Shown here: piece after piece, positions 276 through 20,376 of the stretch
How the letters are laid out: each line of letters opens with the position of its first letter
Position numbering within the stretch: position 1 is the first letter of the stretch
DNA from: a virus
Virus record (IMG/VR): IMGVR_UViG_3300046535_000201
Location: 1 to 23,944 of that record
DNA: 23,944 nucleotides
Direction: 5' to 3' (one strand)
Notes under the pieces: model-generated
The model's input: only the letters and a program-made list of their open reading frames with translations
What the model was told of the DNA's origin: nothing
Databases searched by the model: none
Position numbers and translations under genes: made by a program

Positions 276-629
276 TTATTGACGCCCTTCGTGTTCAATC
301 GAAAAGTGATTACCATCCGCTCGGGTGAATCTTCCTCCCCAGCAACATTTAAAATCTTCCATTGATTGATTTTCCCACCATTCTCCGAGGGGGAGATAAG
401 CGGCGGTTTCTGATTGGTATTCTCCATTAATGAATAAATTAAGGTCAATAGCTAATCGTTGAGTATGAAGAGAATGGGTAATTCCTAATCCAAGTTTTGC
501 TAATCTTTCGGCTTCTTCTGGTGATCTGAAAGCTTCCCCGAGGGTTAACTCAAATCCTAGGATCTGGGCTTTTCGGATAAGACCTGCAATTAAATCAACA
601 AGCTTACTTTGCTTTTCTCTGAGGGTCAT
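276..629 (-). CDS. endolysin, M15-family peptidoglycan peptidase
   Basis: This 117-aa protein matches the small phage M15 zinc peptidases (L-alanyl-D-glutamate or D-Ala-D-Ala endopeptidases) that cut peptide cross-links of peptidoglycan at lysis. Counting from the chosen start, the motif SLHTQRLAIDL holds the likely zinc ligands His55 and Asp62, and DGNHF gives the third ligand His108. The intervening LPLGEWWE and WGGRF segments are typical of the phage subgroup. The length fits a single catalytic domain without a cell-wall binding domain. I chose the ATG at 629 because it overlaps the upstream TGA as ATGA; an in-frame TTG at 638 is less likely. There is no signal peptide, so release would need a holin, and the membrane protein that follows is a candidate partner. 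Confidence 0.9.
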   Translation of the reverse strand: MTLREKQSKLVDLIAGLIRKAQILGFELTLGEAFRSPEEAERLAKLGLGITHSLHTQRLAIDLNLFINGEYQSETAAYLPLGEWWENQSMEDFKCCWGGRFTRADGNHFSIEHEGRQ

Positions 630-3232
630 AATCCCCAACCTAAATTATTTAACAAATCTTGTATTGTAAATCTTACCGAGGATAAAGTGACTCTACGCTT
701 TGGTGGAGTGTTTCCTGTTGGGTCTACTAGAATTTCATCAATTTGAACAGATTGAATTTTAAAATATTTATTGAGCAAAGGATCAGTAAGATTCACTCTT
801 TGCATATTTCCGGCGATAGCGTATTGATCAAAGGTTGAGTATTCAAAAGTTTCAATAGGATAACCAAATAGAGTTAAATCTGCAACTCCTAAACGTCTAA
901 GTTGATCGGGCGTAGTATATTGAGAGGGGGCATTTAAAAGATATTCATGAACCCCATCTCCTCCTTCTCGTGAAGCTGCATCAGCTTGAGCAGCAAAGTC
1001 ATCAACTTGTACTTGAAGTTGAATACCAGATCCTTTGGGGATAGGAAGAATTGACCCAGCACCACAACCAAGAGGAAATACACTAATAAGACTTCCATTA
1101 GAATTTCCGGCATTAGGATTTCCATCTTTAGGAGTTGTACCATCAGGTGGAGGATTACCCGGTCCTGAATCTTTTCCTGGAGGCAAAGTATTTGTTGCCG
1201 GAGGAGCCGCAGAACAAGCATTATTTAAAGGAGAAATACCTGTTCCTGGGTCAATTGGACAACACCCAACAGAACCTGCTCCTGAGGTATTAACTCCTAT
1301 CAAGAATTTTTCTCGTATTCCAGTATAAGAGACTACCTTTCCCCCAATTGAAGCAAATCCTCCTTGGTCACAAAAGGGGGTAGTATCAGAAACGGGAATC
1401 TTATCTTCTCCGTTAACAATTTGGCCTTTAGGAAGATTACCGCTCCATCGCGCTATAGCATACGTTCCTTCTATTGGAACAAGAAGATTTGTATAGGATA
1501 AATGAGTTGCAAATGGAGGATTATGAGGAGTCCCGGTTAAATCTATTGTTAAAGTAAATTTAAATAATTCAGTTTGGAGAATAGGCATTTGTGTTCCAGT
1601 AGGATATTGATAGCCTACTGGCCCCAAAGGCCCAGATGGATGATACGTTGGAGGAGGACTTTCAACAAGACTTAAATCTTGATTTGTAGGAGTATTAGTA
1701 ACATAACTCTTAATAGAGGAATGAAACTCCCTCGTAAGAATAGGCCAAGGAGGAGTGGTGAGAATATCCGCCGAAGCATCTTCTAGATAGAATATAGGGC
1801 TCAGCCAGGCATTTGTTACTAAAAATCCTATAGGAATATTCTGAGTTCCTTGAGGAACTATCACTCCATCTAGAATAAAAGTAGGTAATGCGGAGAATGT
1901 AAAACTTTGTTGAGTTATCACTCCCCCAGGAGCGTCGATAGAACCACCGCCTTGAGCGGGGAATTCAAGTCTAAAAGTTCCAGTTCTTCCATTAACTGGA
2001 GAAAAAATTATAGTAGCTCCAGAAACTGCAGGGTCTAAAGTTACTATCGCTCCTGTAGTATTAGGAGTTCCCGCATCGGAACTCTGTTGAACATAAACAT
2101 TCTGAGCTACTCCAGCAGGAGGTATAGGGAGATTCTGTAATTGAATAGCAGAAGTACCATCTAAATGTACTGTAGTAATCTTTGTCGCTGAAGATTCATG
2201 CCCGTTAGGATATTTAAAAGACAAAAATATATCGTAATTTCCTGCCGGATACGCTACTCCATTTGAAGTAGAAGCATTTCCAGCTTCTCCTTGTTTCTTA
2301 GGAGGAGGAAAATCTGTTGTATTTTCAACAACAGTTACTACATTTACTCCCCCATATCTTAATAGTTGACCGTTAACAAAAATATCTCCAGAATAAGGAA
2401 GTTTTGTTACATCTTCAACAGGTATTATAGTTGCCCCAGCAGGTATATCTGTAGCTACAGAAGTTAATGTTGTACTTCTAACGTAATCTCTTGTTCTAAC
2501 TTGAGAAATATCCTGAGTATAAATAGGTTCTGGGTGAAGTATAATATTATTTTGAGCCACAGTATTTGGCGTATAGACCAACATACTTTGAAATAATTGT
2601 ACTTCAGTATTTTGAAGTCTAAAGGTTCCTCCAACTTGTAAAGCTATATTAGAAAAAACTTCACTTAAAGTTTGAGATCCATCTAAAGTTAAATCAATAG
2701 GAGGTAAGCCTACTTGGACTCCGGCAGTAGAAAAAGCAGGAGCGTAGCAATTAACAAGAAAAAAAGCAATTGTAGCAGCGGAAGTTTGAACCCAAGACCC
2801 CATAGGTCGTTTTTTATTGAAGAGATACTCATATCCAGCAACATGAACTTTCCAAACAGGATTTACTAATTTATCTTGGAAAGTCTTAGATACACTGATT
2901 ATAATACCTTCAACTAATGGCCCAGGCCCCACATCAAAAATAACTTCGTGCCCTACTATAGGAGTATAAGCTACCCCAATATCAAAAGTTAATTCTACTG
3001 GTTGTCCTAAGGTTTGAGAAATATGGGCTCCAGGTTGACGTCTAGCGGCTATAGCTGTAGAATTTGAATGGGGGGTATAAGTATAGGTAGCAGTATACTC
3101 TACTCCAACAGTTCCTCCAGCAATAGCTGTAGAATCCCCTGCGGCAGATCCACTCCCACCGGTAATGTTAGAAACTCCAGACCTAATTATAGGTCTGAAT
3201 CTCAACGCCCAAGGTAACTCAAAACCAATCAT
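626..3232 (-). CDS. large tail hub / tail-tip protein with linker and Ig-like regions
   Basis: This 868-aa protein is the largest in the window and sits after the tape measure and tail-tip genes, just before the endolysin, as expected for a baseplate hub or tail-associated protein. Residues about 70-240 look like the gp27/gpD-type hub fold: a strand-rich start, then DGSQTLSEVFSNIALQVGG followed by a short strand. Around residues 320-420 there is a fibronectin or Ig-like segment (AGNYDIFLSFKYPNGHESS). Around residues 650-715 there is a Pro/Gly/Asn-rich linker with several cysteines (GCCPIDPG, NNACSAAPP, LGCGAGS). The C-terminus (KIQSVQIDEI, RRVTLSSVRFTIQDLL) resembles the end of other tail hub proteins. 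The start overlaps the upstream stop as TAATG. Assignment rests on position and fold impression, not on a catalytic motif. Confidence 0.65.
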   Translation of the reverse strand: MIGFELPWALRFRPIIRSGVSNITGGSGSAAGDSTAIAGGTVGVEYTATYTYTPHSNSTAIAARRQPGAHISQTLGQPVELTFDIGVAYTPIVGHEVIFDVGPGPLVEGIIISVSKTFQDKLVNPVWKVHVAGYEYLFNKKRPMGSWVQTSAATIAFFLVNCYAPAFSTAGVQVGLPPIDLTLDGSQTLSEVFSNIALQVGGTFRLQNTEVQLFQSMLVYTPNTVAQNNIILHPEPIYTQDISQVRTRDYVRSTTLTSVATDIPAGATIIPVEDVTKLPYSGDIFVNGQLLRYGGVNVVTVVENTTDFPPPKKQGEAGNASTSNGVAYPAGNYDIFLSFKYPNGHESSATKITTVHLDGTSAIQLQNLPIPPAGVAQNVYVQQSSDAGTPNTTGAIVTLDPAVSGATIIFSPVNGRTGTFRLEFPAQGGGSIDAPGGVITQQSFTFSALPTFILDGVIVPQGTQNIPIGFLVTNAWLSPIFYLEDASADILTTPPWPILTREFHSSIKSYVTNTPTNQDLSLVESPPPTYHPSGPLGPVGYQYPTGTQMPILQTELFKFTLTIDLTGTPHNPPFATHLSYTNLLVPIEGTYAIARWSGNLPKGQIVNGEDKIPVSDTTPFCDQGGFASIGGKVVSYTGIREKFLIGVNTSGAGSVGCCPIDPGTGISPLNNACSAAPPATNTLPPGKDSGPGNPPPDGTTPKDGNPNAGNSNGSLISVFPLGCGAGSILPIPKGSGIQLQVQVDDFAAQADAASREGGDGVHEYLLNAPSQYTTPDQLRRLGVADLTLFGYPIETFEYSTFDQYAIAGNMQRVNLTDPLLNKYFKIQSVQIDEILVDPTGNTPPKRRVTLSSVRFTIQDLLNNLGWGL

Positions 3233-3789
3233 TAGTTTAACGATTCAAGAATATACTGGTGAAGAGTTAAACTACCTGTAGCTACTGTCTGAGTAAAGAA
3301 AAAATCTACCGTCTGAGCCGCAGTAGTATCAAAATTATTTCCAACAGCAGGAGCACTATTCCAAGGAAGAATTGCGCTTAAAACTCCCTTTGGGGCAGTT
3401 GCAGGAACTCCAAGAATATCTTCACATACCCAAAATCCCTGCATCATCAAATTCCCACTCGAACCAATTGCTCGAGCTGTAAGAAACATTTCTAAATACC
3501 AACCCACATTTGTATGTGCAGCAACGGTATCGAGGAGGATGGCAAGACCGTCAGCAACAACGGTTCCTCCAAATCTAACATCAAATCGAGCAGTTCCAGG
3601 AGTAGTAATAAGTGAGGAAATTCTTCCACTAGCTTTGATACGAATTGCTTTTCCTACATAGTCAAAGAAATTTGCGGGTAGGGTAAACTTTGCCTGAGGA
3701 GGAAGCGCAGAAGCTGCCGCTGCAGCAGTAAGTGCACTTCCGTCTCCCTGAGCAACTACAAGAATCTGATTCCAAGTTTGAGCAGACAT
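3232..3789 (-). CDS. putative virion / tail-tip protein, 185 aa
   Basis: I do not recognise a named family. The protein has no signal peptide or membrane span. It begins with an Ala-rich helix (DGSALTAAAAASAL) and then becomes strand-rich (KFTLPANFFDYVGKAIRIKA, ARFDVRFGGTVVADGLAI), ending in alternating polar and hydrophobic strands (TVDFFFTQTVATGSLTL). This pattern suggests a beta-sandwich or jelly-roll virion protein such as a fibre head or a tail-tip decoration. It lies between a Gp80-like tail protein and the tail hub, directly abutting both genes, so co-expression with the tail tip is almost certain. An exact role cannot be given. Confidence 0.7.
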   Translation of the reverse strand: MSAQTWNQILVVAQGDGSALTAAAAASALPPQAKFTLPANFFDYVGKAIRIKASGRISSLITTPGTARFDVRFGGTVVADGLAILLDTVAAHTNVGWYLEMFLTARAIGSSGNLMMQGFWVCEDILGVPATAPKGVLSAILPWNSAPAVGNNFDTTAAQTVDFFFTQTVATGSLTLHQYILESLN

Positions 3790-4221
3790 TTAAACCTCAC
3801 TAACAATCGTTGTTCCTGCGAGTAAACGTGGGATATTTCCAACAGCACTAATATTTAGATTAGGAGAAACTATGCCAAAATATAACATTGCATCAGAAAA
3901 GCCTGTTCCGATAGAAAAATGGGTGACAATTCCTCCGGCCCCTCCTGCATACGCCGGAAAGTCAATATCTAGTGCAAGTGTTACTTGATTAGCAGCAACT
4001 ATAAACCCGGCACTACTTCTAATTGCTTCAGTTCGAGCATATCCCGTATAGCTGATTTCATTAGTAGCTTGAGTTCCTCCAGCTCCAGGACTTGCTGTAT
4101 GTAAAGCTAAAGTAAGTGTCAATGACCCAAGAATATTATCTCTAGCAATATTATCCATTGGTGCCGCATTAAAAATCAGCAGCAATAAATGATTAGAATA
4201 ATAGTCGCTCTTTGCAGGCAT
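3790..4221 (-). CDS. Gp80-like phage tail-fibre-associated protein
   Basis: This 143-aa protein shows the pattern of the Gp80-type 'tail fibre protein' family found near tail-tip genes of many siphophages: an N-terminal helix ending LLLIFNAAPM, then LTLALHTASPGAGG, the hallmark ATNEISYTGYARTEAI, a FPAYAGGAGGIVTHFSIG segment, and a final strand pair ending LAGTTIVSEV. Family members are small virion proteins thought to sit at the tail tip; their biochemical role is not settled. The start overlaps the upstream stop as TAATG, and the stop is directly followed by the next ATG. Length and motif order are normal for the family. Confidence 0.75.
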   Translation of the reverse strand: MPAKSDYYSNHLLLLIFNAAPMDNIARDNILGSLTLTLALHTASPGAGGTQATNEISYTGYARTEAIRSSAGFIVAANQVTLALDIDFPAYAGGAGGIVTHFSIGTGFSDAMLYFGIVSPNLNISAVGNIPRLLAGTTIVSEV

Positions 4222-5396
4222 TATTTTCTTACCACAACAGTATATTGAGCCGGAAGATTACGAGGGGTTATGCAAGTCATTGAAGTGGGGGAAATAACAT
4301 TATAACTTGTCCCCTCGACCCCTCCAAAAAGAATCTTTGTACTACTATTGAATAAAGATGCTGATGCGGTTAAAGTAACCGTCGTGCCCCCCTGAGCTGG
4401 GCCATTATCAGGAGAAATTGTTATAATAATTGGAGGGGGAGGGCCAAATGCTCCTAAAGAAATTTCTCCAGTATTAAAACTAGCGTCAAAAACGACAACT
4501 TTACCTAAATCCTCGGAAGGAAAAACTGCCCAACAAATAACGCTATTACCTACATCAGTATTATAAGTCCAAGTAAATCCATCGGCAGATGACATTACAT
4601 TATTTGGGGCCGAGCCTCTAGCTGTAGCTATAAAAGCAGTTTGAGCAGCTAGCCAGCAAACTGAATCAAATCCACCACCATTATCTGGAATGCTAGAGCC
4701 AATACTCCAACTTGTACCATTTGTAGAAGTTCTTACTCTATTTGTAAAAGTTCCTAGACGAATAGTCGTCATTACTAAGAGGCTTAAAGCATTAGACCAG
4801 CAAATATCGCCAATAAATTCACTTGAATTTAAAGTAGGGGAACTATCGGACCACCCTGTTCCATTTGAAGAAGTATAAATTTTAGCTGTAGAATTTTTAT
4901 CTGTAAAAGCTAAAAATAACCCAAGAGTGTCAGCCCAAATAACTCTTTGAAATAGTTGCGCTGTAATAGTTTGAGTAGACCAAGCAGTTCCATTTGCTGA
5001 AGTCATTACTCGATGGGTGCCGCTTTCCGCAACAGCTACAAATAAATTAAGTGAGGAAGACCACGCTACACTTTTCCAACGATTAGCTTCTGCAGCAGTT
5101 TGTGGATTCCAAGAAGTTCCATTCGCAGAAGTCCACACTCGGTGAGTTCCATCCTCAGTTACAGCAACTAAAAGAGATAAACTGGGCGACCAACAAACTG
5201 AATTAAATTTATTATTTTCAGAAGGAGTATGAGCAGTCCAGGTAACTCCGTCAGGAGAAGTAAGGATATGCCCTGTAGTTTGAGTTCCTACGGCAACAAA
5301 AAGTAATAATTCATGAACCCAAATACACCCCTTGCCTAAACCAATTTCCCAATTAGTTCCTTCTGGGTTTGAATTATAACTCCAAGTGATAGACAT
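4221..5396 (-). CDS. Asp-box beta-propeller protein with C-terminal IPT/TIG domain
   Basis: Residues about 20-310 contain seven repeats of roughly 43 residues. Each has a strand core like SVCWSPSLSLLVAV followed by an Asp-box-like turn: TSPDGVTW, TSANGTSW, TSANGTAW, TSSNGTGW, TSTNGTSW, SSADGFTW. This predicts a seven-bladed propeller, as in sialidase-like or BNR proteins, but no sialidase active site is visible. A Pro-rich hinge (GPPPPI) leads to a terminal IPT/TIG Ig-like domain (ITISPDNGPAQGGTTVTLT). At DNA level the blades are close to direct repeats: the word around GTTCCATTTG recurs about every 129 bases near 4857, 4986 and 5115. Directly downstream of the tape measure, the protein probably belongs to the tail tip and may bind a receptor or glycan. 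The gene abuts the tape measure stop and overlaps the next gene as TAATG. Confidence 0.75.
   Translation of the reverse strand: MSITWSYNSNPEGTNWEIGLGKGCIWVHELLLFVAVGTQTTGHILTSPDGVTWTAHTPSENNKFNSVCWSPSLSLLVAVTEDGTHRVWTSANGTSWNPQTAAEANRWKSVAWSSSLNLFVAVAESGTHRVMTSANGTAWSTQTITAQLFQRVIWADTLGLFLAFTDKNSTAKIYTSSNGTGWSDSSPTLNSSEFIGDICWSNALSLLVMTTIRLGTFTNRVRTSTNGTSWSIGSSIPDNGGGFDSVCWLAAQTAFIATARGSAPNNVMSSADGFTWTYNTDVGNSVICWAVFPSEDLGKVVVFDASFNTGEISLGAFGPPPPIIITISPDNGPAQGGTTVTLTASASLFNSSTKILFGGVEGTSYNVISPTSMTCITPRNLPAQYTVVVRK
4261..4317. repeat. inverted repeat of the dispersed CGAGGGG word, 7-bp arms
   Basis: CGAGGGG at 4261-4267 and CCCCTCG at 4311-4317 are exact reverse complements with 43 bases between them, inside the 391-aa propeller gene in its IPT/TIG-coding part. 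Confidence 0.5.
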
Positions 5397-7634
5397 TTAT
5401 CGTTGCCCAGCAGCAGGCCATTGACGATATGTTCTTAAAGTAGTCATTAATCTTTCATTAGCCTGATGGAGCATACTTTCAGGAGTACCATGAAAATGAT
5501 TAATGATAGAAATTCCGCCAGCCTTACTAAGAGGAGTTATACTTGAACCACTAGGGAGATTTACTAATTCTGGCCCTTGTTCCCCAACTAAAGCCGTTCC
5601 ACCTGCAAAATTTTCAGTACCACTTACAAATCCTGGGATACGGGGGCCAATAGGTTTACCCTTCTTACCTCCACGTAGAATAGCGATAATCTCTGAAAAA
5701 GAATAACCTTCCTTTGCAAGTTCATCCGCAGAGCCAGGGCTAAATCCAAATCCGGCAATAGATTGATCAAAATTTGAGAAGGTTACGTCTTGAGTGAAAA
5801 CTTCCTTTTGCTCCTTTGCCATCCGGTCGTCCCACTCTTTATTCCAGTCGTCAAAACGCTTTTTATCTTTAGCCGCTAATTCTTCTGCTCTTTTTTCCTC
5901 AAGGTCAATAGAAGTAATTCTTTCTTCCTTTGCCTTCTCAGTATATCTATCGTCAATCTCTCCGCGCTTTGCTGCTCCATCACGATAAATTTCATTTAAG
6001 TCATCTTGATATTCTTTAGCGAGAATTTTACCTTCATTAAATTTCTTAGTAATAGCAGCAATTTCTTTTTTCTGTTGCTCATCAACAGCAGCTAATTCAG
6101 CTCTATGCTCTTCCTCTTGCAGCATTAAGGAGCGATTATGAGCCTGAACTTGTGCGGCATAAGCCGAGTTAGCATAAGTCGCATCAGAGATTAAACCCTG
6201 ATCATGCATCTTTTTCAGATGCTCTAAATAATCCTTTTCTTCAATAGTATTATATTTATCAGCTAAAACTAATTTTGCTTTATGACGTTTATCTTCTTCC
6301 TCATTAGCTTTAGCTGTTAAAGTCTCAAGAAGTTGGATCTGGTCTTCCCAATTCTTTTTAAACTGCTCAGCTTGGCGAGCAGCAGCCTTATCGTCCTGCT
6401 TTTCAGTATTCTGGAAATCTTTTAATTCTTTATCCGCAGCTTTTACTGACTTTTCATATTCTTTATACTGAGCAACAGAAAGACCAATACTAGCTGCATT
6501 TTGTTCTGTAGCAAGTCCTGCTTGCTGTAAAACATCCATTGCATGTTTCTGATCAACTGTTAATTCTTCTACTAATCCCCCCTGTTTTTGTAGAATAATA
6601 TTAAGTTCTTCATCAATAGTTAAATTTTCTTTTTGTTTCTCAGTGTGAGCTTCTTGAGTTTTTAATAGAGCATTATAAGCATCAAAAAATTTATTAATGT
6701 CTCCGCCAGCTAAAGTAAAAGCAATTCCAAGATCTTTAATTTGTTTAATTGCATCTATAATACCTCCACTTCCACTAACGCCCATTAACTCAAATCCTGT
6801 TTTAGCTATACGCTGTTGAATATCTAGCCATTCAGCAGCCTCTACCTTTAAATGATTCCAAAATTGATCCCAGAATCCTGTAGTTGTACTTAAATTTCTT
6901 TGAGTTTCTGCAGCTAAAGTATCTACAGAAGCTTCCTTTTTAAGACCATCAAATTTTTCAACAAGTGGGTCAATTCCCTCGGTACCAAATAATTCTAATT
7001 CTAATCGAGCACGTTGAGTAGGATCAGGAATACCTTCTAAAGCAGTTATGATAGCATTAAAACGTGCTTCAGGATCTAGTGATTGTAAGTTATAAAATGA
7101 AAGATTAAGTTCATTTAAAGCCTCTAATGAACTTACTTTCATAGTATCAAAATTTTTATTTAAAGTCGTAACAGCTTGAGAAACTTTTGTAAAAGGAATT
7201 TCTAATTTTGTTGCCCCAAATTGTAAAACTTCTAAAGTTTCAATAGAAATTCCTAATTCATCATTAAGAGTAACAAGTTCTTGAGCACTGGTAAAAATTG
7301 ATTTTGTAAAATCAAAAATTTCTTTTGCCGCAAACATAGCAGCAAAACGAATAGCCATTCTACCGACAATATTCTCAACAGCACTAGTTTGCTGTCCTAA
7401 TACTCCCATTTGACCATTTATATCTGCAATTTTTTGCTCAAATTGTGCCGCTTTTTCAACCCAAGGACCCAACATTCCTGCTGCTTTAGCCCCCTCCTCT
7501 CCCCCCGCTTGCATATCCGCATTTAATTTATCAATATTAATTTTAGCTTGTTTAAGTTCTGCATCGAGCAATCTAAGATCACTTTCATAAGTGATTCTTA
7601 GTTTAGCGCCAACTTCTGTCCCAGAAATAGGCAT
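5397..7634 (-). CDS. tail tape measure protein
   Basis: This 745-aa protein sets tail length and is threaded through the tail tube. The N-terminal 100 residues are helical and charged. A hydrophobic helix lies around residues 91-112 (VGRMAIRFAAMFAAKEIF), as is common in tape measures. A central segment carries the LNDELGISIETLEVLQFGA and FGTEGIDPLVEKF patterns, and residues about 400-620 form a long Lys/Glu-rich coiled coil. The C-terminus has the family signature GGTALVGEQGPELVNLPSG at about residues 678-697. At about 1.5 angstroms per residue, the length would predict a tail near 110 nm. The start overlaps, as TAATG, the stop of the frameshifted chaperone reading frame, which is the standard arrangement. 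Confidence 0.93.
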   Translation of the reverse strand: MPISGTEVGAKLRITYESDLRLLDAELKQAKINIDKLNADMQAGGEEGAKAAGMLGPWVEKAAQFEQKIADINGQMGVLGQQTSAVENIVGRMAIRFAAMFAAKEIFDFTKSIFTSAQELVTLNDELGISIETLEVLQFGATKLEIPFTKVSQAVTTLNKNFDTMKVSSLEALNELNLSFYNLQSLDPEARFNAIITALEGIPDPTQRARLELELFGTEGIDPLVEKFDGLKKEASVDTLAAETQRNLSTTTGFWDQFWNHLKVEAAEWLDIQQRIAKTGFELMGVSGSGGIIDAIKQIKDLGIAFTLAGGDINKFFDAYNALLKTQEAHTEKQKENLTIDEELNIILQKQGGLVEELTVDQKHAMDVLQQAGLATEQNAASIGLSVAQYKEYEKSVKAADKELKDFQNTEKQDDKAAARQAEQFKKNWEDQIQLLETLTAKANEEEDKRHKAKLVLADKYNTIEEKDYLEHLKKMHDQGLISDATYANSAYAAQVQAHNRSLMLQEEEHRAELAAVDEQQKKEIAAITKKFNEGKILAKEYQDDLNEIYRDGAAKRGEIDDRYTEKAKEERITSIDLEEKRAEELAAKDKKRFDDWNKEWDDRMAKEQKEVFTQDVTFSNFDQSIAGFGFSPGSADELAKEGYSFSEIIAILRGGKKGKPIGPRIPGFVSGTENFAGGTALVGEQGPELVNLPSGSSITPLSKAGGISIINHFHGTPESMLHQANERLMTTLRTYRQWPAAGQR

Positions 7635-8130
7635 TATTCCTCAGATCTTTGATTCAAATGCCAGATGATGCGGCTCACAAGTTCTGGCGGCGCTTCTCTT
7701 AAATCCGAACAACTCCACGACATAAATCTCATTACTGCAATGTCGGTATCGAGTTGGGCCCTTCCGCCTTCGGATTCAAGAGAACTTTTTTTGCATCTTC
7801 AACCTTTTGACGATGGGTAAAGATGACCTTATTAATTTCTTCAAAAACTACGGGGTCTAAAGCCTGAATAGACTCTAGACACAAAGGAGGAACATTCCCC
7901 TCGGAGTCATGAATATGCCAAGCAGTTAACCAAATAGTCGCTCGAAGCATTTCATAGAGACCCCAATCAACTGAACGAAAAATTTTATCTCCGACAGCTT
8001 TATGAACTATTCCAGCTTCATCTTCCTGTTTCTTTTCCCCATTATTAAGCTGTTTCTTTATAACAATCCACTCACCCTCTTCACTAAGAGGATATTTTTG
8101 AGTATCTGTTCCTACAAAACAATTTCTCAT
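7634..8130 (-). CDS. tail assembly chaperone, GT-type frameshift product
   Basis: A -1 slip on the A7 tract at 7786-7792 moves ribosomes out of the 132-aa G frame into a frame that stays open for 50 more codons. It ends at a TAA whose last base is the A of the tape measure ATG. The product would be 115 residues of G plus a 50-residue extension, 165 aa in all. The extension includes the segments FMSWSCSDLREAPPELV and SRIIWHLNQRSEE, which look like the short helical T domains of lambda-type GT proteins and contain the frequent 'aP.elv..i' pattern. GT chaperones bind the tape measure and recruit tail tube subunits. The exact fit of open frame, slip site and coupled stop makes this a strong prediction, although translation has not been shown. 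Confidence 0.88.
7732..8130 (-). CDS. tail assembly chaperone, G-type (unshifted) product
   Basis: The unshifted product is 132 aa. It is helical in its second half (SVDWGLYEMLRATIWLTAWHI, EEINKVIFTHRQKVEDAKKV), with no membrane span or catalytic motif. It lies between the tail tube and the tape measure, where phages encode the tail assembly chaperone that keeps the tape measure soluble before tube polymerisation. I chose the ATG at 8130 because it overlaps the upstream TGA as ATGA; an in-frame TTG at 8148 is less likely. After the slip site the zero frame continues only 17 residues (ending NSIPTLQ) to a TAA. The family is very divergent in sequence, so position and the frameshift carry the assignment. 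Confidence 0.85.
   Translation of the reverse strand: MRNCFVGTDTQKYPLSEEGEWIVIKKQLNNGEKKQEDEAGIVHKAVGDKIFRSVDWGLYEMLRATIWLTAWHIHDSEGNVPPLCLESIQALDPVVFEEINKVIFTHRQKVEDAKKVLLNPKAEGPNSIPTLQ
7786..7792 (-). promoter_or_regulatory. -1 ribosomal frameshift site (A AAA AAA) in the tail chaperone gene
   Basis: On the coding strand the zero-frame codons are GCA AAA AAA GTT, which places a canonical X XXY YYZ heptamer (A AAA AAA, followed by G) exactly in frame. A slip of one base re-reads the last A as AGT and enters the 50-codon extension. Eleven bases downstream there is a small possible hairpin, TCCG-AAGG-CGGA, with only 4 base pairs; its stimulating role is uncertain. Phage G/GT genes are known to use such sites at an efficiency of a few per cent. 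Confidence 0.85.
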
Positions 8131-8450: not shown

Positions 8451-8467
8451 GCCTAATCCCTAACTAA

Positions 8468-12306: not shown

Positions 12307-12357
12307 TATACCCTTCCCATCTCTAATAGAATGTTAGAGCCATCCGGGTTTGGATTG

Positions 12358-12498
12358 TTAGGCTGGCTTAATCATTCGTTGATCTAAAAATTGCGATATT
12401 TTATGAGTCGGTAGATTACTCACATCTACCGACTCACCCTTTTTAAACGTCTTACCTTGAAAGGAAATATCCTTCAAAGCTACATATTTAGAAGCCAT
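12358..12498 (-). CDS. small 46-aa protein directly after the major capsid gene
   Basis: This gene is short but well supported: a near-perfect ribosome binding site (TAGGAGG) lies six bases before the ATG, and the frame is open to TAA at 12358. The peptide has the pattern KYVALKDISFQGKTFKKGES, then VDVSNLPTHK and QFLDQRMIKPA at the end. A short strand, a 'G k t f k k G e x V d' turn and a C-terminal 'q R x i k p' resembles small proteins found between the capsid and connector genes of other phages. Their function is unknown; a small SH3-like fold would fit. Confidence 0.75.
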   Translation of the reverse strand: MASKYVALKDISFQGKTFKKGESVDVSNLPTHKISQFLDQRMIKPA

Positions 12499-12513
12499 GC
12501 CTGCCTCCTAAAA

Positions 12514-13506
12514 TTACGCAACACAAGCCGAGAAGAACGAACCAAGGTCAGCGCCGATAAGCTTATCCGCGAAAGCAATTTCACTTTCAACTCGGACGGT
12601 CTCAAGACCTAACCAAGGCATCGGGATACGATACGAAGCAATCGTATTCCCCAACCCCCTCGAAATCCCCTTCCACATGAAAACGTAACCCGCCGAAGGT
12701 TCCATAATCGAGGGGGACTTGTTAACGTAGCACAGAAGAGCGTTCTTACCCGCAGTCAGAGCGCCGGTAAAGGTCGTGCTACCCGGAGTCTTAGCCGCTG
12801 TGTTCTTCACTGACTTACTAACGAGAACTCGCTCAACAGTGAAGATCTTAGCTAGAGCAGCTTCATTAGCAATAGCAGGATTACCAGGGCCAGCGCCATA
12901 CTTGATAAGATCGATAATATCAGGATGACGAACCAACTTCTGATAGACTTCAAAGCCGAGAACGAATGCGTTAGCTTCAAAGCCCGTTCCCTTGAGGATA
13001 GCTGCCTGTTCCGTCTGGACATCCTCGATAGGAGTCGAGGTGGGGTCATTCCAGAGAGGAGCAACAGTGATGTCAGAACCAGTCGAACTACCAGTCCACT
13101 TGCTGGTAGTGAAGAAGTCAGAAACCCACTGGAGTTCCTGACGGAGTAGAAGCTTACGAGCCACATAACGAGTGGCATCGCGCTCCATATTCAACGGTTC
13201 ATCCGCGTTCGCATCTTCCTGCTCGTCTACGTCCTTATGGTAAGCGTAAACCGTGCAGTTATACGACGGGGTGTTGTCGATGTCGTATCCCCCGCCTGCT
13301 GACTCCTGTGCTACGCCCCTAGGCTGGGCATCATCACGAAACCAGTCATCCTTAGTATAGATGAAATAGCGATTCGACTTTTTATCTACAGGAACGTAAG
13401 GGAACACCTTACCGCAAATAAATGCGTCCTGAGACTGGATATACGCGACCGACATATTTGTTAAAGGTCGGTCTACGTGTACCTGTGAAAGATAAGGACT
13501 CGGCAT
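12514..13506 (-). CDS. major capsid protein (HK97 fold, inferred)
   Basis: This 330-aa protein matches a widespread phage capsid family. The N-terminus runs LSQVHVDRPLTNMSVAYIQS and reaches KVFPYVPVDKKSNRYFIY. It then has DWFRDDAQPRG and AGGGYDIDNTPSYNC, followed by AYHKDVDEQEDANADEPLNM and the helix RDATRYVARKLLLRQELQW (the family's spine-like helix), and an A/P-domain region ending with VRVESEIAFADKLIGADLGS. The gene has a strong ribosome binding site (AAGGAG) and a GC-richer codon choice than most neighbours, in line with high expression. It follows protease, scaffold and decoration genes. The short N-terminal region before the fold suggests that the scaffold is a separate protein, which matches the upstream gene. 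Confidence 0.93.
   Translation of the reverse strand: MPSPYLSQVHVDRPLTNMSVAYIQSQDAFICGKVFPYVPVDKKSNRYFIYTKDDWFRDDAQPRGVAQESAGGGYDIDNTPSYNCTVYAYHKDVDEQEDANADEPLNMERDATRYVARKLLLRQELQWVSDFFTTSKWTGSSTGSDITVAPLWNDPTSTPIEDVQTEQAAILKGTGFEANAFVLGFEVYQKLVRHPDIIDLIKYGAGPGNPAIANEAALAKIFTVERVLVSKSVKNTAAKTPGSTTFTGALTAGKNALLCYVNKSPSIMEPSAGYVFMWKGISRGLGNTIASYRIPMPWLGLETVRVESEIAFADKLIGADLGSFFSACVA
12655..12716. repeat. inverted repeat of the dispersed CGAGGGG word, 9-bp arms, in the capsid gene
   Basis: CCCCCTCGA at 12655-12663 and TCGAGGGGG at 12708-12716 are exact reverse complements with 44 bases between them. They lie in the 3' part of the major capsid gene. This is the longest arm match found among the pairs. 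Confidence 0.6.
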
Positions 13507-13534
13507 TGAAGAATCTCCTTAAATACTAAAACAG

Positions 13535-13945
13535 TTACGAAGCGCGATGCGGATTCGCGCAGTTGATAACAGCGGTGATTAAGTTACCAGCAGCAGAAGC
13601 TCCAGCAACGTTCACCACGGCTCCAACGACATACTCTGTGGAATCCGTAGCAACCGTCTTAGCATCAGCCTGACCATCCGAGCTAGTCCCAATAAGGTTA
13701 CCAGCGGTGAGAGATGCATCAGCCTGAATCATCGTTTCGCCAACTACGACGACATCAACCGGATCACCAGTTGCTCCAACAGGAGACTGAATAACCCCGA
13801 TGGGGATGTCGGTAGCGCCTGTACAAAGAATAACAGCATTATCGGCACTAATTTTTACGAACTTATACTGAACCGTTGCCGCCGTCAAACCTGTACCAGC
13901 GATAGCGCCAGACAGCTTTACCGGCATTGCTCCTAAGAAAGGCAT
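13535..13945 (-). CDS. capsid decoration protein (DUF2190-like)
   Basis: This 136-aa protein is small, Ala/Gly/Val-rich and almost wholly strand-forming, as expected of head decoration proteins that bind at capsid trimer positions. Features are AATVQYKFVKISADNAVIL in the first third, DIPIGVIQSPV, VDVVVVGETMIQADASLTAG in the middle and GAVVNVAGASAAGNLITAVI at the end. The order of 'G V ... A ... G d x V ... v . G . . . v . a . a ... G . l' is typical of the DUF2190 family. It has a strong ribosome binding site (AAAGGAG) and sits directly upstream of the major capsid gene, its usual partner. Confidence 0.8.
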   Translation of the reverse strand: MPFLGAMPVKLSGAIAGTGLTAATVQYKFVKISADNAVILCTGATDIPIGVIQSPVGATGDPVDVVVVGETMIQADASLTAGNLIGTSSDGQADAKTVATDSTEYVVGAVVNVAGASAAGNLITAVINCANPHRAS

Positions 13946-13975
13946 GGATAATCTCCTTTATATTCTAAAAATGAA

Positions 13976-14902
13976 TTACTGCTGTTCCTTACGATACTGC
14001 TTAACAAGCTCAGGATTCTGCTGGCAAGCCTGTTCGAAAGCCTGTTCCTTAGAAATCCCGTTAGCAGACTTCGTAACGAGTTCCTCTGCCTTAGCCTGGA
14101 GCTGAGCTTCTGCCGAACCGACAGAACCTCCGCGGGGCGAACCTAACTGATTCTTCAGAAGATTGCTCTGCTCAATCTGAGCTTCCGCAGCCTTAAACAG
14201 ATCAACCATTCTAGCGAACCCAACCGGATCAGCAGCCTTCATCTTCTGGAACTTCTTGATGTCGTTATCTTCCGCCTTCTCATCAAGATTAAAAGGAGTA
14301 GCCTTGAACGATTTGAGAAGAGTAACCATCTCAGTATGATCACGCTTTTCAATCTCGGACTTCAAAAGAGCATCCGAAGTGTCGAGGCGCTTCTTGAGTT
14401 CAGCGTTCTCAGCCGCCGCCTTCGCAATTTCATCGTCGCGCTTCTTGAGCTCTGCACTAACCTGCTTCTCAACTTCAGTCTTAATAGCCTGTTCATCCAT
14501 TTCAGTATCATCCTTTTTTGACATCATTGGGGTCTGCATTCCCGAATCACACATCTTACACATCTGATCATGCATTGCCTTCAAAGCATGAACTGGGTGC
14601 CCATCGGGATGCGGGCCAGCCCCATACTGAGAAATCATTTTAGCGAGATTATCCTTCTGAGCCATCAACTGATTCTTATGGTCAGGATGTAATCCCCCAG
14701 CTCCAGGTTGAGCTTGAGGCTGAGGAGTTCCTCCGCCAAACTGTGGAGTTCCACCATTCGGCATCATAGGAGTTCCACCACCCCCAAAAGGAGGCATACC
14801 ATTTAAATCTTTCAAAATATCATCAGCAGTAGAATCTCGCTTAGTAGTGTCAGTTTCCTTAGATAATCCTACAATACGCTTGATGACTTCTAAAAAGTCC
14901 AT
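13976..14902 (-). CDS. possible internal start: separate scaffold protein nested in the 422-aa gene
   Basis: Met115 of the 422-aa protein (ATG at 14902) has the sequence AAGGAG six bases upstream, at 14909-14914, an ideal ribosome binding site. Initiation there would give a 308-aa scaffold product lacking the protease-like and DUF-like N-terminal parts. Nested scaffold genes that share the 3' end of a protease gene are known in lambda (C/Nu3) and other phages. The caveat is that AAG GAG also encodes Lys-Glu, so the match could be accidental. Confidence 0.45.
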   Translation of the reverse strand: MDFLEVIKRIVGLSKETDTTKRDSTADDILKDLNGMPPFGGGGTPMMPNGGTPQFGGGTPQPQAQPGAGGLHPDHKNQLMAQKDNLAKMISQYGAGPHPDGHPVHALKAMHDQMCKMCDSGMQTPMMSKKDDTEMDEQAIKTEVEKQVSAELKKRDDEIAKAAAENAELKKRLDTSDALLKSEIEKRDHTEMVTLLKSFKATPFNLDEKAEDNDIKKFQKMKAADPVGFARMVDLFKAAEAQIEQSNLLKNQLGSPRGGSVGSAEAQLQAKAEELVTKSANGISKEQAFEQACQQNPELVKQYRKEQQ

Positions 14903-15244
14903 TCGCTTCTCCTTGGGTCCTGCTGCTTCTAATTTACGATGAGCCTCTGCTTTAACACTAGCAGGCATATCTGTTTGGTTATAGCGAGCTAAAGCATTAC
15001 GCCAGTGATTTTCATCTAAACTGCCATCGGCATGTTTATAAGGAAGCTTTCTCTGCTTATTACCGCTAGCATCTGTCCAAACTGCTGCAAAAGCAGAATC
15101 TGGTAAATCCCCACGAGAACTAGAATCTAGCTCTCTCTTGTATAGAACAATATAGGCACCATCTCCAGTTTCTCGATCAAAATTGGCACCCTTATCTACA
15201 AGAGCAACCCTCTTAAATTTGAGATTCTTTAGATCTCTTGCCAT
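13976..15244 (-). CDS. protease C-terminal segment fused to capsid scaffold, 422 aa
   Basis: Three parts can be seen. Residues 1-37 (LKFKRVALVDKGANFD and IVLYKR) match the terminal strand segment that ends XkdF-type prohead proteases, here detached from the preceding protease gene. Residues about 48-108 (LPDSAFAAVW, RKLPYKHADGSLDENHWRNA, ALARYNQTDMPA) resemble a small phage domain found with capsid maturation proteins. From residue 115 on comes an acidic/basic helical region, a Gly/Pro-rich linker (150-182), a Met/Cys/His patch (HDQMCKMCDSGMQ), a coiled coil of Lys, Glu and Ala (about 250-310), and a helical C-terminus. This second half looks like a scaffold protein with a charged coiled coil. 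The start overlaps the protease stop as TAATG. Base composition turns more GC-rich in the 3' half. Confidence 0.75.
   Translation of the reverse strand: MARDLKNLKFKRVALVDKGANFDRETGDGAYIVLYKRELDSSSRGDLPDSAFAAVWTDASGNKQRKLPYKHADGSLDENHWRNALARYNQTDMPASVKAEAHRKLEAAGPKEKRMDFLEVIKRIVGLSKETDTTKRDSTADDILKDLNGMPPFGGGGTPMMPNGGTPQFGGGTPQPQAQPGAGGLHPDHKNQLMAQKDNLAKMISQYGAGPHPDGHPVHALKAMHDQMCKMCDSGMQTPMMSKKDDTEMDEQAIKTEVEKQVSAELKKRDDEIAKAAAENAELKKRLDTSDALLKSEIEKRDHTEMVTLLKSFKATPFNLDEKAEDNDIKKFQKMKAADPVGFARMVDLFKAAEAQIEQSNLLKNQLGSPRGGSVGSAEAQLQAKAEELVTKSANGISKEQAFEQACQQNPELVKQYRKEQQ
14909..14914 (-). promoter_or_regulatory. internal ribosome binding site, AAGGAG
   Basis: The AAGGAG lies six bases before the in-frame ATG at 14902. 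It is as strong as the sites of the capsid and decoration genes and would decide the internal scaffold start. It may also be an accidental Lys-Glu codon pair. Confidence 0.4.
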
Positions 15245-15672
15245 TATTCTTCTACGCCTTCAGCTGTACCTGCTATGGAGAACATTGTATATTCCCCACT
15301 TAAAACTTTTTGAAAAGCAGATTTATCTACTTTGAATCCAACCCACCATCTACAAGGAAAAAGCTTATTTAAAACAGCTAAACCTTCTTTATCAATTTTT
15401 CCTGTAACAGGATCTGTAGCTAAAGCTGCATTCTTTTCCGCAGTAAAAACTATAGACTCAACAAGATGGCCTATAGGTTCTCCTTCATGCATTTCATCCG
15501 CTTCTCTAGCATGAAGAACAAAATCATAAGCAGCATTTTCTAATTCTGCCGGGGCAATTCGATCGTCTTGAAGATCTGTAATAACCTTACCGCTCTTAGC
15601 AATTGATACATTAGCGTAACCAAACACCAATTGCTCCGCCGTATCAGTTTTTACGATTTTGAAAGGTTCCAC
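15244..15672 (-). CDS. prohead protease, XkdF-like (Peptidase S78_2), core domain
   Basis: This 142-aa protein carries the core of the XkdF-type capsid maturation protease: LVFGYANVSI near residue 16, KVITDLQDDRIAPAELENAA, then the active-site region YDFVLHAREADEMHEGEPIG with His62, followed by HLVESIVFTAEK with Ser73 as the likely nucleophile, and later RWWVGFKVDKSAFQKVLSGE and MFSIAGTAEG. It would cleave scaffold and capsid N-terminal parts during prohead maturation. The usual last segment (LVDKxAN) is missing here and begins the next gene. The start is a GTG with no clear Shine-Dalgarno sequence, and the 79-base gap before it holds only a weak 5-bp inverted repeat (15712-15725). Confidence 0.85.
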   Translation of the reverse strand: MEPFKIVKTDTAEQLVFGYANVSIAKSGKVITDLQDDRIAPAELENAAYDFVLHAREADEMHEGEPIGHLVESIVFTAEKNAALATDPVTGKIDKEGLAVLNKLFPCRWWVGFKVDKSAFQKVLSGEYTMFSIAGTAEGVEE

Positions 15673-15751
15673 TATACCGGGAGGATACGCTATAAAAGGA
15701 AGGACTCAAAATTTCGCTTACGAAACGAACGAGAAATAGTGTAAAAGGGAG

Positions 15752-15994
15752 TTACACCCGGCGGGAAGGAAAGGAAAATGATCGAGCAACTGAACCCCCT
15801 CGGGGAGCTTCAATACTAATTAATTTATGTCTAAGAGCGATAATATCAATTTTATAAACACGAATTAACTTAGGCCCAATACGAATTGAGGGCACCCAAT
15901 GACGCCAAATCCATTGACGTAGAGTCATCGGGTGAACCCGCAAAAGGCCAGAAGCCTCTTCAATACCTAAAAATTCATCCCCTAGGTTTAACAT
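15752..15994 (-). CDS. small helix-turn-helix DNA-binding protein, 80 aa (MerR/excisionase type)
   Basis: Residues 10-55 contain a winged helix-turn-helix of the MerR or excisionase (HTH_17) kind: LGIEEASGLLRVHPMTLRQW, then WIWRHWVPSIRIGPKLIRVY and a final helix. The pattern 'a..l.vhp.Tl..Wi..g.ip.iriG..lir' fits DNA binding by a small protein. The C-terminal tail is basic and Ser/Arg-rich (GGSVARSFSFPSRRV). The gene overlaps the previous one by 20 bases and has no good ribosome binding site, so coupling is likely. Its target is unknown; it could regulate late genes, act in excision, or help recognise DNA for packaging. Confidence 0.65.
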   Translation of the reverse strand: MLNLGDEFLGIEEASGLLRVHPMTLRQWIWRHWVPSIRIGPKLIRVYKIDIIALRHKLISIEAPRGGSVARSFSFPSRRV

Positions 15995-16181
15995 TTAAAG
16001 CATCGGTCAAAACAATTGTTTGAACCCCCTCGCTTAAATGTCTAGGAGTTTCGAGGGGGGCACCAACACCACCGCGTGACTTTCTAGTGCGGCGAAGTTC
16101 ATCTAAAACACTTCTAGTTTCATCATGAGTTTTCTTTAGTTGCTCTGCTTCAAATTTAGCAAGTAATTCTTTTTCACTCAT
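15975..16181 (-). CDS. hypothetical protein between two helix-turn-helix genes, 68 aa
   Basis: I do not recognise this protein. The first 35 residues form a charged amphipathic helix (KELLAKFEAEQLKKTHDETR, VLDELRRTRKSR) and the rest is polar (LSEGVQTIVLTDALNVK). It overlaps the preceding 59-aa gene by eight bases and the following HTH gene by 20 bases. The DNA holds two inverted copies of the CCCCCTCG word (16025-16032 and 16052-16059). It may be a partner or a linker between the two HTH proteins, but nothing shows this directly. Confidence 0.55.
   Translation of the reverse strand: MSEKELLAKFEAEQLKKTHDETRSVLDELRRTRKSRGGVGAPLETPRHLSEGVQTIVLTDALNVKPRG
16025..16059. repeat. inverted repeat of the dispersed CGAGGGG word, 8-bp arms
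   Basis: CCCCCTCG at 16025-16032 and CGAGGGGG at 16052-16059 are exact reverse complements separated by 19 bases. They could form a stem-loop inside the 68-aa gene. No T-run follows on either strand in a terminator position. Confidence 0.6.
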
Positions 16182-17314: not shown

Positions 17315-17715
17315 TATACCGCTCCTCCATATGGCGCTGAAAGATTATCTCCTTCAATTCCAAAACCTGTATCTCCAATTGGGTCTAAAGGATTAATGAT
17401 TGTAGTTGTAGTCGGTAACTTTGCTGCGGCCATAATAGCTTCCTGAGCTTCAGGAGCCGCAAGAGGATTAAATCCGGTGCCCGCAACATCTTTAATGAAA
17501 GTTCCTAATTCCATCAAATTGATACTTTCTACTTCCCCATGTTCCATTTCGGGAGTTAATTCCTCTGGCCACCCATTCATTTTCATCAAAAAAGGTATAC
17601 CTGAACGATTAATAATAGCGCAACTACTATCTAAAAATGAACTTAAAGAAGAAGTGAAAAGTCCAATCTTAGTTGAAGCCATCGCCTTAGAGCCAACAGC
17701 TTCATGGCCTAACAT
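17314..17715 (-). CDS. portal protein, C-terminal part (separate reading frame)
   Basis: This 133-aa frame continues the portal family pattern that stops in the upstream gene. It begins MLGHEAVGSKAMASTKIGLF and has SFLDSSCAIINRSGIPFLMK, MNGWPEELTP and EVESINLMELGTFIKDVAG, which match the later part of DUF935/Mu gp29-like portals. The frame overlaps the N-terminal gene by 14 bases, at +1 relative to it, and upstream it is closed by TAG eleven bases before the ATG. There is no Shine-Dalgarno sequence, so independent initiation would need coupling at the TGA of the first part. The most likely history is an indel in one portal gene, real or a sequencing/assembly fault. Confidence 0.75.
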   Translation of the reverse strand: MLGHEAVGSKAMASTKIGLFTSSLSSFLDSSCAIINRSGIPFLMKMNGWPEELTPEMEHGEVESINLMELGTFIKDVAGTGFNPLAAPEAQEAIMAAAKLPTTTTIINPLDPIGDTGFGIEGDNLSAPYGGAV

Positions 17716-18814
17716 AACGAAGTTGAGCTATGCGTTGATCATATCTCTGAATAATAGCGTTAGTATCAAAAGCTCGGCGCGAACCTGTACTAACTAAAGA
17801 GAATTTAGCCCAATATGGAATAACCATTCCTTCTTGTTCATCTCTACGAACTGATCTAACAATTTGCTTCATATTTGAAAGCAAATTAACCATTTCAGGG
17901 TCTCTTGTATTCCAAAGATCAGGAGGTTGAATTCCCTTTGCTGGGTCCGGTTCAATAGTAGTCATTACCGGGTATCCTGCTAAATCTCGTTCAATACCAA
18001 TACCTTCAAATACTTGAAGATTCTTCTTCAGATAATAACTTGTCCAACAATTACGAAGAATTGATCTACCCTCGGGGTTATTCTTTGCTACTTGAGTTCT
18101 AAAGTTAAGACATTTACCAAGAGGAATACGACGAATCTTATAGTCAGGAGGAGCCATCTGCTGCATAACTACAGCATTACTTTGCTCATCGAATTCCCAC
18201 ATGAATAAAGTTTCTTGAGACCTTAAAGACCATTCCTTGAAACCAATCAATCCGTCATTAAATCTAGATGGAGTAAAAGAGGGAAGAGCATATCCTACTC
18301 CCCCAACAGATTGAGATCCTTGAACGGGGGGATTAGTATCTTCAATTCCTGAACTACCCATTCTACGTTTAATCGTAAATTCCATACAAGCCCAACCAAA
18401 AGGGAGCATTGTAAGAATTTCAGAAAGAGTATCTGGCCAAGTGCTACTAAGATCATCAAAAATCATCGATCCAATTTTATCGGCAATAAACATACCAAAT
18501 TGAGAAGTATCCGCTGGCTTTATCCTATATGTTACTTTACGAGTAAGATAATTTGCAGCAAAAAGAATAGCTCCAATTACAGGGTCATTATCCATCATTT
18601 CCCGGTAATTTTTCATACCGGATGGACCCTGGAGTTCTCTTAAGAACTCCTCATAGATTCGGCTAACTGTTCCATAACGAGTTAAACCTGAAATACCATA
18701 AGCCTGATCAAGAGGCTTATTCGTTTCATCAGAAGGCGGTCCAGTCACCTGCTCCTGAGTACGAACCTCATTTGAGGCTACATTATCTGCCGAGGGGGGA
18801 CCATATTCAGCCAT
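17702..18814 (-). CDS. portal protein, N-terminal part (DUF935-like), frame-broken
   Basis: This 370-aa frame is the main body of a portal protein, the dodecameric DNA gate at a capsid vertex. It shows YGISGLTRYGTVSRIYEE, NYREMMDNDPVIGAILFA, LTMLPFGWACMEFTIKRR, GLIGFKEWSLRSQETLFMW and TSYYLKKNLQVFEGIGIERD, a run typical of the family, and ends just after FDTNAIIQRYDQRIA. Family members continue there with a short 'LADF' segment and LGHE. Here the frame instead reads QLRYVRP and stops, while LGHE follows in the +1 frame. I chose the ATG at 18814 (TAATG with the terminase stop); a longer frame to 18826 is less likely. As written, the chain would lack the portal's last third. Confidence 0.85.
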   Translation of the reverse strand: MAEYGPPSADNVASNEVRTQEQVTGPPSDETNKPLDQAYGISGLTRYGTVSRIYEEFLRELQGPSGMKNYREMMDNDPVIGAILFAANYLTRKVTYRIKPADTSQFGMFIADKIGSMIFDDLSSTWPDTLSEILTMLPFGWACMEFTIKRRMGSSGIEDTNPPVQGSQSVGGVGYALPSFTPSRFNDGLIGFKEWSLRSQETLFMWEFDEQSNAVVMQQMAPPDYKIRRIPLGKCLNFRTQVAKNNPEGRSILRNCWTSYYLKKNLQVFEGIGIERDLAGYPVMTTIEPDPAKGIQPPDLWNTRDPEMVNLLSNMKQIVRSVRRDEQEGMVIPYWAKFSLVSTGSRRAFDTNAIIQRYDQRIAQLRYVRP

Positions 18815-18893
18815 TATACCCGCCATCTAGACCGTGAACGGTCTGAAACGCTACCAAAACTTGTCCAATTTGATATCTTTAGCAACCCCTCGG
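18790..18893. repeat. inverted repeat of the dispersed CGAGGGG word, 8-bp arms across terminase/portal junction
   Basis: CCGAGGGG at 18790-18797 and CCCCTCGG at 18886-18893 are exact reverse complements with 88 bases between them. The pair spans the terminase stop and portal start at 18814. The right copy is part of the longer CCCCTCGGGG. Confidence 0.5.
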
Positions 18894-20376
18894 GGATACC
18901 CTTAGCTATATCAGGAGTTACTTCGGCAAAACTTATTAAGAGAGAATCCGCACGATTAGGAGAAGGTCCATCTTGATAAAATACTTTAGTCTGACCTTTA
19001 CTATTAGGTTCCCAACGAACCATTAAAAGTTCTTCAGCTAGGTCAGTATCATTCTCATCAATATCAATTTCACCACGTTCAAATAATCCTCTAATCCCCC
19101 ACCAAATCTCTGAAAGTAAATCAGCAAATTCAAGAGGATTCTTTGCGCTATGGCTTACAGATACTGGGATAATAGGAAGCTTATCTTCAAGAGCTTTATC
19201 AACAACCCCACGTCCTACCCCAATATAATCTACATTACAAAAAGTAGCCCCCATATGTGGGTCACGAAGGGTTTTAACCATTCGACCTAAAGTCTTCATC
19301 GTATCAGGTTGACGCTCTTCATATAAAACTCTAAAATGAGAACCACGTCGCCAGCCTAAACACGAGGGATCGCCATCTTCACTAGCCCCAACATCTAGTC
19401 CGAGATTATTAGGCAAACCCGGTCGAATAGAACGCTCTTGAGCTTGTCTAATCCACGTAAGAGGAATAAGAGAACCGGCCCCGGTCTGAACTGGAAATTG
19501 TCCTAAAACTTTTGATTGCCAGAAAGGATGAGTATCCTCAAGTTTTCCATCTTCCGGCATTAAAACCCGATTATGCGCTTCATTCCATTTCCAAGACGGC
19601 GCCCATTTCTTACGTTTTTCCTCCACATAAGACATGCCGATAAGTTGAGATAGAACTTCCTGTGGTAAGTCATTTTTCTCATCGGTAAAATTAGGACTAT
19701 CAAAGGCACTTATCTGGACAATATTCCATCCAGAATTAGGACGACAAGCTTCATAAATTTCACCAGAAGGCTCATCTGGGTTAAAGATAGCTAACATTTT
19801 AGACCCATCATTAGCAATCAATGAATCCATTGCGTCCCAAAGTTTCCCTCGAACACCATTCGCTTCATCAACTATAACAAGAACAAAGGGAGCGTGAATA
19901 CCCTGAAAAGCTGTTGGAGAATAGTCCGAGGGTTTACGGCCAAGAGCTACAGTTTCCTCTTTATCTCCAACTTTTTCAACCCATTCAGTTTGGTTTAATC
20001 TTCCGCGAAGTTGGCCATGCTGGTGCATACGGCCAATTTCTTTCCAGAGAATTAATTTAACCTGTGGTCCTGTAGGAGCAGTAGTTACTACAAACGCGTC
20101 TCCAGGTTCATGAATATCAAGCCAATGTCCTGCAATACGTGCCGAAATAAAAGACTTACCAATATCATGGCAAGTCATTGCCGCTGTTTTACGATGGTCT
20201 CGAACAGAATTCATAATCTTTTTCTGTCCGGACCATATTTTTTCACCTAACTTATCTTCAACCCAAAAAGTGGGTTCAAGATAATATTGGTGAGCTTTTA
20301 TTTTAGCTTGGACCTTCTCAATCTCTTGTAGTATCTCTTCAAGAGTGAGATCCTCGCTAATTTCAATGCTGCCCAT
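18814..20376 (-). CDS. terL: terminase large subunit (TerL)
   Basis: This 520-aa protein is the packaging motor and nuclease. In the ATPase domain the Walker A-type loop is CHDIGKSF at residues 69-76, following HRKTAAMT, and the Walker B strand is VLVIVDEA at 165-172. A coupling segment, MLAIFNPDEP, follows. The RNase H-like nuclease domain begins LGLDVGASEDGDPSCLGW, with Asp328, has NVDYIGVGRGV with Asp383, and ends NRADSLLISFA with Asp477, giving the usual three acidic metal ligands. The length is normal. The start is two bases after the upstream stop, and the stop overlaps the portal start as TAATG. A small terminase is not visible next to it. Confidence 0.96.
   Translation of the reverse strand: MGSIEISEDLTLEEILQEIEKVQAKIKAHQYYLEPTFWVEDKLGEKIWSGQKKIMNSVRDHRKTAAMTCHDIGKSFISARIAGHWLDIHEPGDAFVVTTAPTGPQVKLILWKEIGRMHQHGQLRGRLNQTEWVEKVGDKEETVALGRKPSDYSPTAFQGIHAPFVLVIVDEANGVRGKLWDAMDSLIANDGSKMLAIFNPDEPSGEIYEACRPNSGWNIVQISAFDSPNFTDEKNDLPQEVLSQLIGMSYVEEKRKKWAPSWKWNEAHNRVLMPEDGKLEDTHPFWQSKVLGQFPVQTGAGSLIPLTWIRQAQERSIRPGLPNNLGLDVGASEDGDPSCLGWRRGSHFRVLYEERQPDTMKTLGRMVKTLRDPHMGATFCNVDYIGVGRGVVDKALEDKLPIIPVSVSHSAKNPLEFADLLSEIWWGIRGLFERGEIDIDENDTDLAEELLMVRWEPNSKGQTKVFYQDGPSPNRADSLLISFAEVTPDIAKGIPEGLLKISNWTSFGSVSDRSRSRWRV

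Follow-up and report, generated by a model that had tools for sequence, protein, structure and literature searches.

The sequence analysed here, referred to as the window, is the complete IMG/VR record IMGVR_UViG_3300046535_000201 of 23,944 bases. It carries the late module of a soil-type tailed phage. Almost every gene is on the minus strand, and the products include the terminase, portal, protease, major capsid, tape-measure and tail proteins, and an M15-type endolysin. The record comprises the late region only, and any recombinase, methyltransferase and replication genes would lie outside its coverage. The overall GC content is 41.0%, above the 36-38% of an earlier note on this DNA, and falls to 28% at third codon positions. 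No tRNA genes, sought in the phage as a clue to its host, were found. A hairpin with a perfect 6-bp stem and a 4-base loop (AGACCGTTCACGGTCT on the minus strand) is located at 18829-18844, directly before the portal start codon. Palindromes of 4 bp are avoided across the window, most strongly GTAC (31 occurrences against 65 expected) and also GATC, CTAG, CATG and TGCA, which is likely a trace of host restriction.

Dispersed among these genes is the hexamer CGAGGG (CCCTCG on the opposite strand), described in the earlier note as an over-represented word with about 25 copies on both strands. Its count and positions were reproduced: 25 copies are present, 13 on the plus and 12 on the minus strand, a density of 1.04 per kb. 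The 7-mer CGAGGGG occurs 13 times and the 8-mer CGAGGGGG eight times. All 25 copies lie inside coding sequences and, as had also been remarked, different codon frames are used (0, 1 and 2); the copies are often spelled with codons that are rare in this phage.

At the left end, the endolysin-like ORF (276-638) holds copies at 386-391 (+, 8-mer) and 539-544 (+), and the ORF at 626-3232 holds one at 1729-1734 (-). An inverted pair of 7-mers follows at 4261-4266 (+) and 4312-4317 (-). Single copies are found at 6976-6981 (-) in the tape-measure ORF (5397-7634), at 7898-7903 (-, 7-mer) in the ORF at 7732-8148 and at 8605-8610 (+, 8-mer) in that at 8468-8881, while the glycosyltransferase-like ORF (8895-9866) has two, at 9133-9138 (+) and 9807-9812 (-). 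Beyond the inverted pair at 10067-10072 (-, 7-mer) and 10126-10131 (+), one copy each is present in the ORFs at 11168-11644 (11437-11442, +) and 11654-12109 (11795-11800, +). The major capsid ORF (12514-13506) contains an inverted pair of 8-mers at 12657-12662 (-) and 12709-12714 (+); at the former, Ser-Arg-Gly is written TCG AGG GGG, with the rare arginine codon AGG where relatives have CGN. Another 8-mer, at 15797-15802 (-), is located in the HTH ORF (15752-15994), and two more form the inverted pair at 16027-16032 (-) and 16052-16057 (+). In the portal ORF (17702-18826), the copy at 18069-18074 (-) falls in the conserved NPEGR motif and is the main site often occupied in relatives too, whereas the 8-mer at 18791-18796 (+) forms an inverted pair with the 7-mer at 18887-18892 (-), already in the terminase ORF (18814-20376). 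The latter ORF also holds a copy at 19363-19368 (+) and the last inverted pair, at 19846-19851 (-) and 19927-19932 (+). The terminase is closest to those of the contigs L179-L181 (60-61%), which belong to another phage neighbourhood than the portal and capsid relatives such as L009, and the loci of the L009-type relatives gave no match to it. These different nearest relatives point to module exchange; both modules, terminase and portal/capsid, contain CGAGGG.

The 25 copies compare with 5.1 expected from an order-2 Markov model, 3.6 after synonymous-codon shuffling, genome-wide or within genes (maximum 9-10 in 300 shuffles), and 5.0 after codon shuffling that preserves neighbouring bases (maximum 11). 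A Markov or codon-shuffled model yielding similar counts, on which the earlier note's claim could have foundered, was thus not obtained, and the excess is kept after codon shuffling. For the 7-mer, the 13 copies previously reported stand, and the accompanying expectation of 0.5-1 has to be raised to 1.1-2.2; for the 8-mer, eight copies are observed against 0.3-0.6 expected. Synonymous choice could write CGAGGG at 176 coding positions; 25 of these carry it, where 3.3 would be expected (P ~3e-14 by a site-by-site calculation). CCCTCG is the top outlier when all 6-mers and some 18,000 gapped 3+3 words are ranked, and the runners-up mostly overlap it. When 57 viral contigs of at least 15 kb were compared by codon shuffling, the strongest word was that of the window (deviance 37.8, against a median of 11.2 for the best word), which also ranks first of 152 contigs by the Markov test.

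The excess extends beyond the window. Querying with the 868-residue tail protein retrieved a second contig, L280 (IMGVR_UViG_3300046642_000415, 1-15276), which shares 12,385 bases with the window at a single mismatch (99.99% identical) and extends its left end by 2.9 kb, where a small hydrophobic ORF accompanies two more ORFs of tail type. In an out-of-sample test, these 2.9 kb yielded five further copies of CGAGGG against 0.7 expected (P = 8e-4). A lack of enrichment elsewhere in the phage genome, which would have told against the word, is therefore not what this stretch exhibits.

Over the extended contig (window and L280), 15 copies are in sense and 15 in antisense orientation. As both strands are equally used while nearly all genes are on one strand, the word behaves as a double-stranded DNA signal, and this balance argues against an RNA or a polar signal. 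The word is also exact: its one-mismatch variants number 83, below the 116 expected from the Markov model, and its transition products show no excess either (25 against 31 expected from codon shuffling). The flanks of the 30 copies are weakly constrained, with C never found at either of the two positions 3' of the word (P = 0.005 and 0.002) and G only once at position -1 (P = 0.02), leaving six invariant positions with weak flanks. The hexamer differs from its reverse complement and hence is no palindrome. The spacing of the copies over the extended contig looks random (CV 1.08), and 19 of 29 neighbours alternate in orientation. The six pairs closer than 100 bases, which the earlier note had singled out as all inverted, are positioned and oriented as described, yet their significance is only nominal and post hoc (P = 0.02 for six of six inverted, and P = 0.02 for the occurrence of six such pairs). 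The best reading of these observations is an exact, strand-symmetric DNA word.

The excess is specific to this phage lineage. Relatives with 60-85% identical capsids have the same gene order and a GC content of about 54-68% (nearly all relatives exceed 48%), and no comparable CGAGGG excess was detected in them; low-GC relatives sought by capsid, portal and terminase included none with an excess. Conservation of the word at synonymous positions in related phages, proposed earlier as a check, was not observed: relatives with the same residues have CGAGGG at 11% of the word sites and at 7% of the other possible sites (per-site means; permutation P = 0.19), and at 11 of the 15 sites open to comparison no relative has it. 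Since the word is mostly missing at homologous positions, it was, judging from these sequence comparisons, most likely gained in this lineage, along with the fall in GC. The fraction of possible sites realised in the phage (14%) matches that of some GC-rich relatives (12-15%); the oddity is a GC-rich level of CGAGGG kept in an AT-rich genome. Retention from a GC-rich ancestor was considered, and the site comparison with relatives gives it no support.

The right-end genes have 27 possible sites and use none of them, while 25 of 149 are used elsewhere (P = 0.016), in agreement with the absence of copies from the fibre genes that had been pointed out. They include a fibre gene with a GC content of 53%; the fibre protein encoded at 22838-23881 gave no matches as a search query. 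A recent acquisition of this fibre (host-recognition) module would fit the unused sites. As to the gap at 12716-15796, the three genes at 13535-15672 offer just 13 possible sites, too few to tell.

Survival of the excess under codon shuffling, the even use of strands, the recurrence outside the window and a resemblance to control phages (see below) together support a DNA-level signal, the class (HIP1, uptake or recombination words) put forward by the earlier note, with the exception of the RNA hairpins that it also listed. We consider it reasonably probable that CGAGGG is an exact, asymmetric double-stranded DNA word of an AT-rich host, read by a host DNA-processing machine and gained in the lineage of this phage. 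Both a host carrying the same word and the identity of the reading machine are inferred by us. The phage lineage would probably have moved to an AT-rich host, CGAGGG being gained afterwards and kept exact as a recognition word that recurs through the phage roughly every kilobase. The host genome would itself be rich in CGAGGG, as its DNA-processing machine reads the word, and phage DNA that is recombined, repaired or taken up in this host would accumulate the word or be selected for it. The machine may serve recombination or DNA uptake (Chi-like or uptake-signal-like) and, less likely, a HIP1-like methylation or repair process. Haemophilus phages that carry uptake signals, and a cyanophage that carries HIP1, are precedents for such sharing of a host word.

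A host genome rich in CGAGGG, as the earlier note had envisaged, was searched for by pattern in two phyla, and none of the 149 Acidobacteriota and 159 Actinomycetota genomes displays a comparable excess; the best ratios belong to GC-rich genomes with CGAGGG near expectation, and the six genomes examined more closely are of this kind. No second, unrelated phage lineage with a CGAGGG excess was found among viral contigs, and the literature on CGAGGG as a bacterial motif provided nothing relevant. Scanning viral contigs for pairs of the type AACCCCCTCG...CGAGGGG returned many matches that are perfect terminator-like hairpins. In the viral contig L085 (3943-7430), whose GC content is otherwise 43%, CCCTCGGGCGAGGG makes up GC-rich hairpins arranged in arrays; this contig was rejected as a second carrier, its hairpin-array copies not following the dispersed pattern of the window.

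Tentatively, a bacterial lineage may use (H)CGAGGG(DD) as a genome-wide recombination or uptake signal distinct from the HIP1, Chi and uptake sequences described so far. Its phages would write the word by synonymous codons and thereby bear a readable host tag; we regard this as possible. Should the word be the host's own signal, as in the two positive controls described below, CGAGGG would point to a host with an undescribed iterated word and offer a handle for host prediction, as well as a system for following the gain of a word after a host change.

Among the other explanations, CGAGGG could be bound or cut by a DNA protein that the phage itself encodes (involved in replication, recombination or packaging, nucleoid-like, or a transcription factor), and be selected along the phage genome on that account, independently of the host genome. 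We hold this to be unlikely. The lack of a host with the word among the Acidobacteriota and Actinomycetota sampled, the tendency of close pairs toward an inverted arrangement, such as a dimeric protein would bind, and the HTH protein encoded in the window agree with it; however, homologous phages that share the gene module, down to the HTH gene (30-39% identity), do not exhibit the excess, the copies are randomly spaced within genes and not at promoters or at one end, and no candidate protein is nameable from a record of late genes only.

A Chi-like site proper, whereby a recombinase-less phage accumulates the regulatory word of host RecBCD/AddAB and so protects or recombines its DNA, seems rather unlikely as well. 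CGAGGG resembles the known Chi words in being short and exact, with an asymmetric, G-rich sequence, and its observed/expected ratio of 5-7 stands beside the median of 3.1 for Chi in recombinase-negative phages (lambdoids), in which Chi is over-represented (PMC3784561). Its density is about five times the ~0.2 per kb reported for those phages (PMC3784561), with an unbiased orientation. The same pipeline detected no Chi excess in phages P2, HP1 and c2 (0, 0 and 1 copies), which are perhaps not recombinase-negative, c2 having an Erf-like gene. As Chi is also a host word, this explanation overlaps with a word read by a host machine, the reading preferred here.

That the word is a compositional or mutational by-product without selection, either a leftover of a GC-rich ancestor or a codon-context effect, is very improbable. 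The realised fraction close to that of some GC-rich relatives speaks for it; against it stand the synonymous shuffles at three context levels, which give only 3.6-5.0 copies, the relatives with the same residues that mostly do without CGAGGG at homologous positions, the lack of an excess of decay products, and the fact that no other word in the genome behaves in this way. RNA hairpins or terminators formed by the inverted pairs are scarcely credible, for although all six close pairs are inverted and that at 4261/4312 folds with z = -3.3, the other five fold only 0.3-2.1 standard deviations better than shuffles (z -0.3 to -2.1), only 12 of the 25 copies are paired and singles are equally common, the pairs sit within coding sequence, and sense and antisense copies are equally numerous. 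Phages tend to avoid restriction sites, as this one avoids GTAC and several other 4-bp palindromes, whereas CGAGGG is enriched, so that a restriction target was rejected.

The word is best placed by comparison with known systems, and to our knowledge its sequence is that of no HIP word, uptake signal or Chi site described so far. The same pipeline was applied to four control phages, HP1, Nodularia phage 2AV2, P2 and c2, and in two of them it picked out the word that the host itself iterates: the Haemophilus uptake signal AAGTGCGG in HP1 (18 copies against 2.3 expected) and HIP1, GCGATCGC, in 2AV2 (15 against 1.0). The first 40 kb of 2AV2 (L279) contain 18 copies of HIP1 against 0.2 expected from the Markov model, a clear HIP1 case in a cyanophage. 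P2 and c2 yielded no such host word and weaker context effects only; a milder effect, about twofold over codon shuffling, is seen for ACCGGC/GCCGGT in P2 (L277) and in the viral contig L251. Few phages have strong words that are independent of codon choice, and the top word of each positive control is the genome-wide signal of its host.

CGAGGG matches none of the Chi sequences in the cited Chi literature; it resembles Chi of the recombinase-negative lambdoids in being a short and exact word, asymmetric and rich in G, that phage DNA favours. A strand-polar distribution, as expected of Chi, is not observed (15 sense, 15 antisense); such polarity is seen in host chromosomes and is not necessarily required of phages. 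Nor does the word exhibit the strong orientation bias of KOPS/AIMS (13 plus, 12 minus in the window). Like HIP1, it is iterated very densely inside genes, at about one copy per kb and in every frame. HIP words may be driven to saturation at ~1 per 1000 nt by a proposed methylation-linked mismatch-repair ratchet (PMC4390886). HIP1 itself, absent from the window (GCGATCGC, 0 copies), is a palindrome tied to an orphan methyltransferase, whereas CGAGGG is not palindromic, and no methyltransferase was seen in this late-region record. The asymmetry and exactness of CGAGGG make us lean toward a recombination or uptake word over a HIP palindrome.

The uptake signals of Pasteurellaceae in their phages differ from CGAGGG in sequence and in length: that of HP1 has a 9-bp core and no close inverted pairs of its 9-mer, whereas CGAGGG has 6 bp with weak flanks and not a 9-12 bp core of a known dialect. 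We know of no uptake signal as short. As Pasteurellaceae phages adapt to a host, their GC content changes in step with their uptake signals (PMC6776037). Like CGAGGG, these signals (e.g. AAGTGCGGT in HP1) are exact and asymmetric, lie inside genes in both orientations, here balanced at 15/15 with variants not in excess, and are present far above the codon-shuffled expectation.
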